Source of the DNA: Nitratiruptor sp. | GTDB lineage: Bacteria; Campylobacterota; Campylobacteria; Campylobacterales; Nitratiruptoraceae | Reading direction: 5' to 3' | Assembly (NCBI GenBank): GCA_027036935.1 | Contig: JALWCE010000154.1 | Coordinates: 1-41,149, forward strand | Length of the DNA: 41,149 nucleotides | Shown here: positions 11,610 through 17,070 of the stretch, piece by piece | Layout: every line of letters starts with the position of its first letter | How positions within the stretch are numbered: the first letter of the stretch is position 1 | Program-made: the position numbers and the translations under genes | The notes under the pieces: model-generated | Told to the model about the DNA's origin: nothing | Databases searched by the model: none | The model's input: only the letters and a program-made list of their open reading frames with translations

Positions 11610-13220
11610 CTAATCCCCAAAAATCAAGGCGTTGGGTTTTTTGTCCAGCTTCAAAAGCACCTTATGTAAACTCTTGGCACTTTTATCGATATCATACAAA
11701 GTTTGGGTGAGCTGCGCTTTAAAAGTGGAGTTGGCATCATACCCCTTAGCCAAAAGAGTAAACTCTTTTAAAGCTTTTTGCAGTTGTCTCAAAGTAGTGT
11801 GTAGATCTTTTGGCAATGCCTTTGTCTCGTTGCTCTCTAAGAGCTTGTGCAAGCTGCTTAGAGTCCTATGCAAAGAGAGCAGGCTCTGGCGCAAGGGCTT
11901 TTGATTTTTCTCCAACAAAGCAGAAAAAGCCTCAAGAGCACGTTCGATGGGCAGGTTTTCTAGCTTGGTCAATATCTTATCTAGATGTTCTAGCAGTTTG
12001 CTCTTGCGATAAGGCAGAGTGGGCAAAGCGTACACACCATTGCCCAAAGACTTGAGCTCTCCTCCTTCTTTTTCAAACACGAGATTAACAAAGAGAGATT
12101 TTGTTAAAAAATTGCTCTGTTGAAGTTTCGCCTTGAGCCCTTTTTGGACCGCTTTGCGCAAAGCATCCATTCCAGAGATTTTAGGAGAGTTTTGAAAAGC
12201 TGAGACATCCAAACGGATCAGCACCTTTGAGTTCACCCGTCTATGTTCAAGATCAAAAAAGCTTGCTACATCCTCCACCTCTCCTACTTTATACCCTTCA
12301 AACCGCACGGGCGAGCCGATGCCAAGATATCCCGTCCCCGCATCAAAATCGAGTAAAAACCGAACAAATTGTTCTCTTGGTAGACCCAGCTTCTTTTGCA
12401 ACGCCTCGCTTTTGCTAGGATAAAGAATAAAAGGCTTTTGCAAGGAGATACGGCTCTTTTGTCCCAAATTTTTGGTAGCAAATCCAACACCACCCATGAG
12501 CATCTGAGAGAGTGAACCCATACGCACCTCCAACCCTTCATCCGTCAACTCCAGCCGTACGCTTTTTATATTCCAAAATCGGCTGGTATCGTTGATGAAG
12601 CGGTCATATGGATGTCTAATAAAAAGATAGATATTTACCCTTTGGCCATCGGAAGCTAGGTCTATCTTTTTTACGGCTCCTACCCGAAGCTGTCTATAGT
12701 AGACTGGCATACCCGGTTCAAGGGCAAAAGAGCTAGAAGCTTGCAGCCGCACGGTAGAGCCCCTCTTATCCTCGATCAAAGGAGGCTCCTCCAACCCTTG
12801 AAAAACAAGTTTGCTCCTCTTGCCAAGCTTTGCGCTCATCTGAATGTAAGCCCCGCTCATCAATGCGTCCAATCCCCGCACTTTTCCCAGTCCAATTTCA
12901 GGTTTTACTATCCAAAACTTAGTTGTTTCATTTAAAAAAGGCAAAATATCTTTATTGACCCTCGCATAGACCCGCACCCCCTTTTTCAAAATCTCGATAC
13001 GCTCTACTCTTCCTACTTTGACTTCACGAAATTTGACATAAGAGTGTTTGGGTTCGAGTCCGCCGCTGCTTTGGAAAGTAATTTGGATCTGAGGACCCAA
13101 ATTGGAGTAGTAGCGATAGAGCATCCACCCCCCTATGATCAAAGCGATCAGGGGTACGAGCCATACGATGAGGTGGATACTTCTTTTTTGAATTTTTACT
13201 TCAACTATCTCGTCTTGCAC
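11610..13220 (-). CDS. pqiB: PqiB-like MCE-domain lipid transport protein
   Basis: Single N-terminal TM and repeated MCE-like modules (ITFQSSGGLEPKHSYVKFREVKVGRVERIEI; GSPVRFEGYKVGEVEDV). Confidence 0.85.
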   Translation of the reverse strand: MQDEIVEVKIQKRSIHLIVWLVPLIALIIGGWMLYRYYSNLGPQIQITFQSSGGLEPKHSYVKFREVKVGRVERIEILKKGVRVYARVNKDILPFLNETTKFWIVKPEIGLGKVRGLDALMSGAYIQMSAKLGKRSKLVFQGLEEPPLIEDKRGSTVRLQASSSFALEPGMPVYYRQLRVGAVKKIDLASDGQRVNIYLFIRHPYDRFINDTSRFWNIKSVRLELTDEGLEVRMGSLSQMLMGGVGFATKNLGQKSRISLQKPFILYPSKSEALQKKLGLPREQFVRFLLDFDAGTGYLGIGSPVRFEGYKVGEVEDVASFFDLEHRRVNSKVLIRLDVSAFQNSPKISGMDALRKAVQKGLKAKLQQSNFLTKSLFVNLVFEKEGGELKSLGNGVYALPTLPYRKSKLLEHLDKILTKLENLPIERALEAFSALLEKNQKPLRQSLLSLHRTLSSLHKLLESNETKALPKDLHTTLRQLQKALKEFTLLAKGYDANSTFKAQLTQTLYDIDKSAKSLHKVLLKLDKKPNALIFGD

Positions 13221-13788
13221 AAATCTCTCCTAATATTCGCTCATCCAAAGCGTATGAGGCCATAAGAGTAAAAAAGACCATCAAGGCAAAGGAACTTGCT
13301 CCAATACCCGGTATTATAGCGATACTTTGAAAGTGGATCAGCGCCACAAGTAGCACTACGACAAACACATCAATCAAAGACCAAGGACCGGTCAGCTCTA
13401 TAAGGTGATACAACCACATCTCTTGTTGTAAACTTTTGCATCTTTTGCGCCAAATGGTAAAGAGCAGATAAAAAAGCACCAGAATTTTAAGGAATGGGAT
13501 GAGTACGGAAGCTACGAAGATAATGATCGCAACCGGATAATCCCCCTCGCCCCAAAGCTCTACCACGCCGCCAATGATCGTACTTCCCTCAACATTGGAA
13601 AATTTGGAAGTTTGCAAAATGGGGTAAACATTGGCCGGAATATAAAAGATAACGGCAGCTAAAAGATAGGCAAAGCTCTTATAAAGCGAGCCTTTAATAT
13701 CTAAAGTGATCTGCAATCCGCATCGTCCGCACCATCTATCCTCACGATCGTTGGTAGCTCCGCAGTACGGACATCTAAGCCATCTCAT
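13201..13788 (-). CDS. Paraquat-inducible protein A family (PqiA domain)
   Basis: CPYCGATNDREDRWCGRC zinc ribbon; YIPANVYPIL motif. Confidence 0.85.
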   Translation of the reverse strand: MRWLRCPYCGATNDREDRWCGRCGLQITLDIKGSLYKSFAYLLAAVIFYIPANVYPILQTSKFSNVEGSTIIGGVVELWGEGDYPVAIIIFVASVLIPFLKILVLFYLLFTIWRKRCKSLQQEMWLYHLIELTGPWSLIDVFVVVLLVALIHFQSIAIIPGIGASSFALMVFFTLMASYALDERILGEICARRDS

Positions 13789-14392
13789 AGCGTCGCTCCC
13801 ACAACTCCCACAGCTCTTCGATGCGAATACTTTTTACCACATAAATCTCTAAGAGCACAAATATCCCTAAAGCCCAAAACGCCACGCCAAAATGGATCTG
13901 AGCATACTGATACACCTTGATCATCGCCACTAAAATGGCGATAAAAAAGATATCGAGCATACTCCAGCGTCTAAAGATCTCCACCAAGATCAGTGAGCCC
14001 TTGGCTATAACTTTGCCTCTTCGTAGCAGCACCAAAATAGAAAAAAGGCTCAACGTTCCCATCAACAACCACGGAAAAACCTCCAAAACAAGTAAAGAAA
14101 AGAAACTAATAAAGACAAACCCTTTATCAAAGAGGCTGAGTATCGCCTCAAGCAAGAGAGTGCGTGCGCTCAGTTCTCCAAAATTTATACGAAGCAAAGG
14201 CGAAACATTGGCTATGAGCAAACAAAGCAAAGAGAGTGTCGAAAGAGTCAAAAGCAAATACTCAAGACCCGAGCGGTAACGATATAGCAGTGCTTGACAG
14301 CGTACGCATCGAGCCTCCTCTTTAGGTGCGAGTGGCAACTTTTTGTGTGGGGTAAAACATCTCGGACACAAAATTATATTTTTATGCAACAT
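13775..14392 (-). CDS. Paraquat-inducible protein A family (PqiA domain, first half)
   Basis: CPRCFTPHKK...RCVRC zinc ribbon; LLIANVSPLLRI; overlaps the next PqiA ORF by 14 bp. Confidence 0.8.
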   Translation of the reverse strand: MLHKNIILCPRCFTPHKKLPLAPKEEARCVRCQALLYRYRSGLEYLLLTLSTLSLLCLLIANVSPLLRINFGELSARTLLLEAILSLFDKGFVFISFFSLLVLEVFPWLLMGTLSLFSILVLLRRGKVIAKGSLILVEIFRRWSMLDIFFIAILVAMIKVYQYAQIHFGVAFWALGIFVLLEIYVVKSIRIEELWELWERRYEMA

Positions 14393-14852: not shown

Positions 14853-14876
14853 GCAAGCTTTACGGCGATATTTGGT

Positions 14877-14906
14877 AAGAGCGAGATCGAAATGGATTTC
14901 GCTCTT
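14877..14906. terminator. Putative bidirectional intrinsic terminator between the DUF2853 gene and the serpin gene
   Basis: AAGAGCGA...TCGCTCTT stem followed by TTTT, between convergent genes. Confidence 0.6.
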
Positions 14907-14920
14907 TTGTGGTATCAGAT

Positions 14921-17053
14921 TTAGGGTCTGCGCACTACTCCCATAAAAAGCGGCGTTTGGGTGCCGTCGTGGAAAATCATAAAGATAAAGGGGCGATCTA
15001 AAACGAAGCGATAGGGCTGTGGCGCAGCCGTTACCGAAATCACCCCCGCCGTTGCGGCTGCCGCTTCGCTCCCTTTTTCGTCCACTTTAATGTAGCTTTT
15101 GTGAAAAAGGCCACTAAGAAAAAGGCGACGTTGGCTTGGGCCAATCAATGTAAGATCGGCTCTATTGGGATCAAAAAGAGCCTCTATCCCCATTTGCCTC
15201 AGTGCACGGGAAAGCTCTTTAGTACCCCAAATAATCTTGAATTTTGGCATCTTAAGTTCTACATTGTACTTGAGTACCCTTTTATCGTAAAGTGCCGCAG
15301 GCTCTAAAGTGATCAGTGTGGTGAGCAGATCCTCTACCCTCTTGCCCTCTTTTGGCGCTACAAGCCACATGCTAAAATCTTGTTTATAAGGCAGCTGCAA
15401 AGCGGTAAACATAGAAAATTCGCTCACATTATATTCAGAGGTTCGATTCATCATATCCACAAGTACGCTATCACCATTTTGTGGATAGAACCTCTCTTTT
15501 TTTGTCAAAGAGGCGTTAAACTCCTCTCTCCACTGGCCATAAAAATAGACCGCATCTACCAGCACCGCCTTGGTGGCCGAAGATATGGAGCCCGGTGGCA
15601 AGAGATTTTTTATCTTTTGATGCGTTTTTTGGGCTACCCAATCATTGATCTGGCCTCGCGATCCCTCAGGATCATCTCCAAAATCAACTCTAAAAAGCTC
15701 AGCACCCAACACATCGTTTATCAAATATCGGTAGCTTCGGTATGGATGAAAAGCTTTGTCAAACCAAGCACTATTGGCAATTTCAAGCTCTACTGCATCG
15801 CTGTGAAGCTGGGAGCGAAAGGCCGCAAGAGAAGCGAGGGGATCAAAATCTTTGGGATAACCAAGAGCTAAACGAAGCTCCTTTTTAGTCTCACCTTTGG
15901 CTCCCACATAAAGCATCACTAACGCATCTTCGATACTCAAAGGCGAGCAAAACAGATTATTGCGCTTGGTATCTAGCTCTTTAACCAAGTTGATACCCAG
16001 ATGATAAAATGAGGAGGCAAGTATCCTTGTATCGGTACTTACATTTTTTTCGCAACTTCCCATATGGACAAAACGCGCTTGTGTATCGGCTTTAAGAGCG
16101 CAGTAATTGGGATAAGTGGTAAAAAGAGGCTCACAAGGAGCTACCACGCACTGCACCTGTTTAAGACCGCATACGGGAGCTTGAGGCTCGTTATCACATG
16201 GTATTTGCATCTGTGTCGAAACAATATCTTCTTGGCCTTCCCCCTCAAAAATAACTCGCTGGATATTTTTGCTAGCTAACACCCCTGTAAGATAGTAAGC
16301 CATATCGGCCGTCCCCATCTGGGGAACAGAGCGAGCGATAGGGATCTTGACTACCTCATCGCTCACAAAGATCGGCTCTTGGAGCTTCACCTGAATCGAT
16401 CCGCTTGGCTCCGTGATGCGATAGAGGATGAGATTGTACAGATCAAAATCGCTTCCTTCTATTTTGGCTTGAAGCTTTTGGCTTGGATGTGCCGCCAAAA
16501 ACTCTTGGGCCTCTTGCCAATCATGCAACACCACGCTTTTGGGAAAAGTGGAGAATTCATAAGATCTCAGCAAGGGCAAGTAGCGAAGAAAACCTCGCTC
16601 AAAAGTGATTTGTAAAGGATAGCGTCTAAAATGCATAAATCCTAGATTTTGATACTCAAAAAAAGATCCCACGGGTGTGGGTAGAAGCTTAAAAACCTCC
16701 TTAGAGTCCTTTTGAGCTCGAATCGTAATAAAATCAAATCTCGTATCCCCATCTGCATCTAGATCCCCAATGAAATAAAATCGCCATAGCGGCTGGGTAT
16801 TTAGATGCACATCTACCCGTTTCCAGCCAAAAACATTATCGGGCGTAGGCTCGGTGCCGTGCATTTGATAGATATGGTCCAAAGGAGTTTTAAAAGCCCA
16901 GTTGTAGGCACTAAGAGGCGAAGAGGGGGGATGAAAAGGGTAAGGATAGAAATCTCCGGCTAACTTGAAACTCTTGTCTTGTAAAAGTGCGGGAGAGAAG
17001 CCAGCAAAAGCAAAAAGTGCTCCCCAAAATAGTGATAAACAAAATCGCAACAT
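14921..17053 (-). CDS. Secreted Kazal-like + serpin fusion (predicted protease inhibitor)
   Basis: 710 aa; signal peptide; Kazal-like 6-Cys segment CDNEPQAPVCGLKQVQCVVAPCEPLFTTYPNYCALKADTQARFVHMGSC; serpin motifs NNLFCSPLSIEDALVMLYVGAKGETKKEL, hinge EKGSEAAAATAG, DRPFIFMIFHDGTQTPLFMGVV. Confidence 0.9.
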   Translation of the reverse strand: MLRFCLSLFWGALFAFAGFSPALLQDKSFKLAGDFYPYPFHPPSSPLSAYNWAFKTPLDHIYQMHGTEPTPDNVFGWKRVDVHLNTQPLWRFYFIGDLDADGDTRFDFITIRAQKDSKEVFKLLPTPVGSFFEYQNLGFMHFRRYPLQITFERGFLRYLPLLRSYEFSTFPKSVVLHDWQEAQEFLAAHPSQKLQAKIEGSDFDLYNLILYRITEPSGSIQVKLQEPIFVSDEVVKIPIARSVPQMGTADMAYYLTGVLASKNIQRVIFEGEGQEDIVSTQMQIPCDNEPQAPVCGLKQVQCVVAPCEPLFTTYPNYCALKADTQARFVHMGSCEKNVSTDTRILASSFYHLGINLVKELDTKRNNLFCSPLSIEDALVMLYVGAKGETKKELRLALGYPKDFDPLASLAAFRSQLHSDAVELEIANSAWFDKAFHPYRSYRYLINDVLGAELFRVDFGDDPEGSRGQINDWVAQKTHQKIKNLLPPGSISSATKAVLVDAVYFYGQWREEFNASLTKKERFYPQNGDSVLVDMMNRTSEYNVSEFSMFTALQLPYKQDFSMWLVAPKEGKRVEDLLTTLITLEPAALYDKRVLKYNVELKMPKFKIIWGTKELSRALRQMGIEALFDPNRADLTLIGPSQRRLFLSGLFHKSYIKVDEKGSEAAAATAGVISVTAAPQPYRFVLDRPFIFMIFHDGTQTPLFMGVVRRP

Positions 17054-17070
17054 AAAAAATCCTTTAGAGG

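Follow-up and report, generated by a model that had tools for sequence, protein, structure and literature searches.

Why should a bacterium of the genus Nitratiruptor carry a serpin that is preceded, in the same protein, by a Cys-rich segment resembling a second protease inhibitor, and what might the rest of this protein contribute? The question arises from a gene in the window (the whole stretch of DNA analysed, 41,149 nucleotides of contig JALWCE010000154.1), and it was approached by profile searches, structure prediction and comparison with the genomes of the genus and the phylum.

Gene structure and domain organisation

The gene occupies positions 14921..17053 on the complementary strand (-), on which all its features described below are also located, and forms an open frame of 710 aa belonging to a family present in 11/16 genomes of the genus. 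A likely ribosome-binding site, AAAGG (17061..17065), could be read upstream of the ATG at 17053. The genome of origin (1.69 Mb in 156 contigs, 96.9% complete) had this single serpin, and the GC content of the gene was close to that of the window (0.45 vs 0.44). Comparison of the protein with NCBIfam gave zero matches, and no RNA families were found near the serpin gene.

Residues 1-17 (17003..17053) were read by eye as a Sec-type signal peptide, with a likely cut between AFA and G and without a lipobox Cys. The export-type start of the original prediction thus stood, and the N-terminal sequence suggests that the protein is exported. It is followed by a domain that we called D1 (residues 18-165, 16559..17002), a domain D2 (residues 166-283, 16205..16558), a Kazal-like module (Cys286-Cys334, 16052..16198) and a serpin domain (residues 351-710, 14924..16003). 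The stretch of about 270 aa first taken for a unique N-terminal region turned out, therefore, to consist of two domains, and related genomes encode 30 other proteins with the first of them.

The serpin domain

The serpin domain matched PF00079 with 328.8 bits (cut-off 27) and an E of 6.3e-98 over positions 5-370 of the 370 of the model, showing that it was complete, as had been proposed. The AlphaFold model of the full-length protein (mean pLDDT 80.2, pTM 0.62) superposed on cleaved antithrombin with a VIA Z of 49.0 and an rmsd of 2.0 over 369 aligned residues, so that sequence and model agreed on the fold. Conserpin and serpins B3/B4 were the closest solved sequences. A small-residue hinge of the inhibitory type, GSEAAAATA or a close variant, was found in 11/11 members of the family; hinge and reactive-centre loop cover residues 661-682 (15008..15073) in the window protein. 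In having a complete domain, an inhibitory hinge and a reactive loop, the protein resembles the inhibitory serpins (PF00079, MEROPS I4) conserpin, tengpin, chloropin and miropin.

P1 was assigned at a count of 15 from the hinge Gly, which falls on Met in conserpin-AATRCL; because the loop has two more residues in the window protein than in conserpin-AATRCL, the predicted position (Thr675, with Ala676 as P1') may be off by 1-2 residues. The predicted P1 was Thr in 9/11 members, the exceptions being L003 with Ile and L011 with Val, and P1' was A, S, T or E. A small P1 would point to elastase- or subtilisin-like targets.

The Kazal-like module

Six Cys (286, 295, 302, 307, 318 and 334) were invariant in the 11 aligned members, which argues that the pattern is not due to chance; V294, P306, P309, T313, N316, Y317 and L320 were also invariant in 11/11. 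Pfam Kazal_2 aligned at 285-334 with an E of 0.78 and 10.3 bits, below its gathering cut-off of 22.8, and at E up to 10 a trace of Kazal_2 was detected in 4/11 members (best E 0.4). When a profile of the module was searched against 177,635 PDB sequences, the top two matches were the Kazal inhibitors SPINK7 and silk protease inhibitor 2. Since their E values were only 0.34 and 0.97, the module was compared directly by hhalign with seven PDB Kazal domains, giving a score of 28.5, which none of the controls reached (the highest scores were 17.9 for column shuffling and 18.9 with the Cys kept fixed, 300 shuffles each). Both AlphaFold models predicted the secondary structure order strand-strand-helix-strand, with the elements at 294-298, 310-314, 317-322 and 326-331 in the full model.

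The classical Kazal order of Cys (pairs 1-5, 2-4 and 3-6) was not found, as counterparts of C1 and C5 were missing and an extra pair, 302/307, was located inside a 12-residue insert between two strands. A better comparison was offered by GmSPI-2, a non-classical Kazal inhibitor described as having only two disulfides, 5-24 and 13-39, together with its order of beta-strands and helix (PMC4169406). Cys 286, 295, 318 and 334, conserved in 11/11, correspond to Cys 5, 13, 24 and 39 of GmSPI-2, with near spacing and the same beta2-alpha-beta order, and by this correspondence the predicted disulfides of the module would be 286-318 (5-24) and 295-334 (13-39), with 302-307 predicted as a third. Unlike GmSPI-2, the module has the 12-residue insert with Cys 302 and 307 and a different presumed P1, and sits in a large protein. 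With four Cys of the GmSPI-2 type and an insert of its own, the module can be described as Kazal-like and non-classical, failing the classical definition. Of the six-Cys Kazal-like segment in the original prediction, the Cys pattern and the profile kinship were upheld, whereas a match above the Pfam cut-off and the C1/C5 positions were not; together, the sequence comparisons support a Cys-rich segment probably akin to Kazal domains and distinct from the classical Kazal domain (PF07648/I1).

Among 397 genomes of the phylum the module gave five matches, exclusively in Nitratiruptor and all within the serpin gene. Searching plasmids with the module of the window protein yielded none, and with the module of another member, four chance-level matches. 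With Kazal_2 as the query, neither 200 genomes of the phylum nor the control gave a match, so that this search carries no weight.

The N-terminal domains D1 and D2

The two halves of D1 proved to be copies of one beta repeat of about 50 aa (hhalign 55.0 vs 20.5 for the best of 200 shuffles). D1 had no Pfam match and no meaningful match among the PHROGs, the search of solved structures returned nothing below E 0.5, and Foldseek with the N-terminal model found no match at E 0.001 or better. Weak EF-hand traces were detected within D1 of two proteins (E 0.007-0.009).

A profile derived from the serpin proteins detected D1 in 12/16 genomes of the genus, each with between 3 and 12 matches. With a broader profile, built from 30 rows, it was detected in 7/397 phylum genomes, of which six were Nitratiruptor and the seventh belonged to another family, the counts per genome in this search being lower bounds. 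The genome of the other family (G385), which is of the same order and was the sole one outside the genus among the 397, had at least four copies of D1 (L083). Excluding the serpin fragments L056 and L060, we counted 30 distinct non-serpin D1 proteins in 31 rows (L043 and L048 being one gene). D1 was placed near the start of the frame in 27/31 rows (26 of the 30 proteins) and at the C-terminus in four rows, and by a crude rule a signal-peptide-like start was recognised in 28/31 rows, L020 and L075 being frames cut at their start. Scanning of 18 D1 proteins revealed, above the Pfam cut-offs, partners that included LVIVD repeats, RCC1 repeats, staphylococcal nuclease and multihaem cytochrome, as well as DUF2202, Cytochrom_D1 and ZU5; six further proteins covered by these scans lie outside the set of 30. 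Judged from these profiles, D1 is an apparently undescribed, internally duplicated module common to many exported-looking proteins, and it is a more surprising part of the protein than the serpin variant itself.

Within the genus, each of the 11 genomes with a serpin also encoded other D1 proteins, and of the five genomes without one only a single genome had any (Fisher p 0.0027, uncorrected for relatedness and therefore too small, because the species are related). The completeness of the genus genomes was 71-100%, with five of the 16 under 90%. The co-occurrence of serpin and D1 may simply follow the tree of the genus.

Subtilases of the genus, that of the window genome among them, had weaker D1-like repeats at their C-terminus. 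The subtilases L095:1030-2850 and L094:1033-2850 end in two such weak repeats, and the Ser-rich frame adjoining each of them (L095:2-931 and L094:2-1021) contained two more.

D2, of mixed alpha/beta structure, was found among 200 genomes only together with the Nitratiruptor serpin. It had no family match, and its profile found nothing below E 0.5 among solved structures. Its model showed a weak resemblance to NigD-like proteins (Z 4.3, rmsd 3.4-4.0, 83-85 residues aligned), and none of the matches listed had a Z of 5 or higher. A PrcB-like identity, suspected from the appearance of its sequence, was dropped, as Pfam did not support it even at E values up to 10.

Distribution and genomic context

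Serpins were detected in 12/60 genomes (that of the window included), namely 11/16 of the genus and a single genome from another family. When 397 genomes were drawn evenly from the phylum, eight gave a serpin match, five of them Nitratiruptor; the three others were frames of 444 and 454 aa and one remnant of 36 aa. Serpins, which are patchy in bacteria, are rare in this phylum. The remnant (L025), in a genome of another family, corresponds to a serpin C-terminus with a stop. Compared with the two intact serpins of 444 and 454 aa, the Nitratiruptor protein has some 330 more N-terminal residues, comprising three further domains. The search for the same architecture that had been recommended did find it, in 11 of the 16 genus genomes: ten Nitratiruptor relatives share it with the window, eight of them with a complete frame (L007 ends at a contig edge near its first residues and L009 within the N-terminal part). 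Identity to the window protein was 36-86% in the 11-member alignment.

The gene order in L016 was glycosyltransferase, flippase, serpin, an ATPase-like gene, DUF2853, PqiA and PqiB, and the window has the same order minus the ATPase-like gene; positions 14853-14920 of the window mark the site where the relatives have this gene, between serpin and DUF2853. The neighbour in the relatives had no Pfam match above cut-off, 'ATPase-like' being a reading by eye. The ATPase-like gene, DUF2853 and PqiA adjoined the serpin in five of the seven serpin contigs compared (L013, L014, L016, L017 and L019), and no match to this arrangement was found in the other two (L015 and L018). At 11610-14392 of the window, the PqiA-type protein is split over two adjacent genes (13201-13788 and 13775-14392), followed by a PqiB/MlaD-type gene.

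Alternative interpretations

The window genome is in 156 contigs, and a fusion of this kind could be suspected to be an assembly chimera or a frame artefact of a metagenome bin. This can be practically dismissed, because the architecture recurs in 11/16 genomes of the genus: the ten other genomes in which it is identical include two assemblies of just two contigs, and the neighbours of the serpin are conserved among relatives. It is also very improbable that the serpin is a non-inhibitory one serving as a structural or ligand-binding domain; non-inhibitory serpins exist, but the small-residue hinge is conserved in 11/11 members. The bacterium's own exported subtilase could be what the serpin restrains, since the single subtilase (607 aa) of the window genome carries two weak D1-like repeats at its C-terminus and the small P1 Thr would fit subtilisin-like enzymes. 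Peptidase_S8, however, was found in only 6/16 genomes of the genus (5/11 with the serpin and 1/5 without it), and for that reason this reading, which we regard as unlikely, is weaker than one in which the serpin guards the D1 proteins.

The protein had also been suggested as one that may act on two protease classes. Kazal inhibitors and serpins both target mainly serine proteases, so two classes do not follow from the presence of the two folds. The protein could still be a true double inhibitor, with the loop Cys286-Cys295 of the Kazal-like module working as a canonical inhibitor beside the serpin trap, as its profile kinship with Kazal domains and the predicted strand-strand-helix-strand order, as in Kazal, would allow. 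In Kazal inhibitors such as OMTKY3 the P1 residue is at Cys+2, and strong inhibitors of this family are not known to show D, G, N, Q or E there. The presumed P1 of the module was D in five members, G in three, and N, Q and E in one each (n=11), which makes inhibition by the module doubtful on its sequence; moreover, Glu followed the presumed P1 in 10/11 members and then Pro in 8/11, and eight residues separated the first two Cys in 9/11 members instead of the seven of the GmSPI-2 type, seen in 2/11. On the other side, GmSPI-2, with its P1 also at Cys+2 (Thr7 after Cys5), is described as inhibiting subtilisin and proteinase K (PMC4169406), and a two-disulfide domain of Phytophthora as inhibiting proteases of the subtilisin family (PMC1236909). 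A working second inhibitor seems to us possible but rather improbable.

Proposed role

On balance, and with some reserve, we favour an exported inhibitory serpin that would be held by D1, together with the other D1 proteins, in a compartment of the envelope or the surface, where it would shield them from serine proteases. From the complete fold and the hinge we infer protease inhibition: a protease would attack the reactive loop at about Thr675-Ala676, the cleaved loop would insert into beta-sheet A and the protease would remain trapped. That D1 is shared by exported-looking proteins suggests that the serpin is held at a common place outside the cell; it is this sharing from which a holding role of D1 at the surface may be read. 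D1 would thereby keep the serpin in the same compartment as the other D1 proteins, which would be shielded there from serine proteases. The Kazal-like module would sit beside the serpin, clamped by its disulfides, as a spacer or an aid to it, and may itself be a second inhibitor. The function of the fusion protein as a whole is likewise one that we infer.

A comparable arrangement has been described for the dockerin-serpins, PinA of Clostridium thermocellum and Doc-Serpin of Ruminococcus flavefaciens, in which a serpin is joined to a module shared among exported proteins, as here, and for which protection of the cellulosome from proteolysis has been proposed (PMC5301203). D1 differs in being no dockerin by any library match, and no Pfam match to a dockerin domain was found at E up to 10 in any of the 11 members. 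The D1 proteins comprise up to a dozen different ones per genome, with changing partners and, in some, EF-hand-like and DxDxDG loops. We tentatively offer the further idea that D1 might act as the recognition module in an as yet undescribed system for export or display in Nitratiruptor-type vent bacteria and that the serpin might be, like the dockerin-serpins, the protease guard of the assembly.

Relation to known inhibitors and significance

According to the original prediction the fusion is not known as a described architecture, and we came across no description of it in the searchable open literature, taking titles and the beginnings of abstracts for the most part. No serpin-Kazal-like fusion was seen in the searched parts of the open full-text literature on bacterial serpins, compound inhibitors, vent Epsilonproteobacteria and the secreted proteins or protease inhibitors of Nitratiruptor, nor any paper in the open full-text literature combining Nitratiruptor and serpin, and the terms Kazal, dockerin and Epsilonproteobacteria gave no hit in the main text of a serpin phylogeny (PMC8233489). 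The compound or mixed-type inhibitors of insects are alike in having several inhibitor-type folds per chain, but the examples presented in these reports join small Cys-rich units and none is a serpin (PMC3278429, PMC5309989).

The genus Nitratiruptor has thus kept a four-domain serpin, in a form not found in the portions of the literature searched, within a phylum that is otherwise poor in serpins. D1 may offer a handle on where such bacteria place their exported proteins, and the serpin would predict that serine proteases attack at the site of the D1 proteins.
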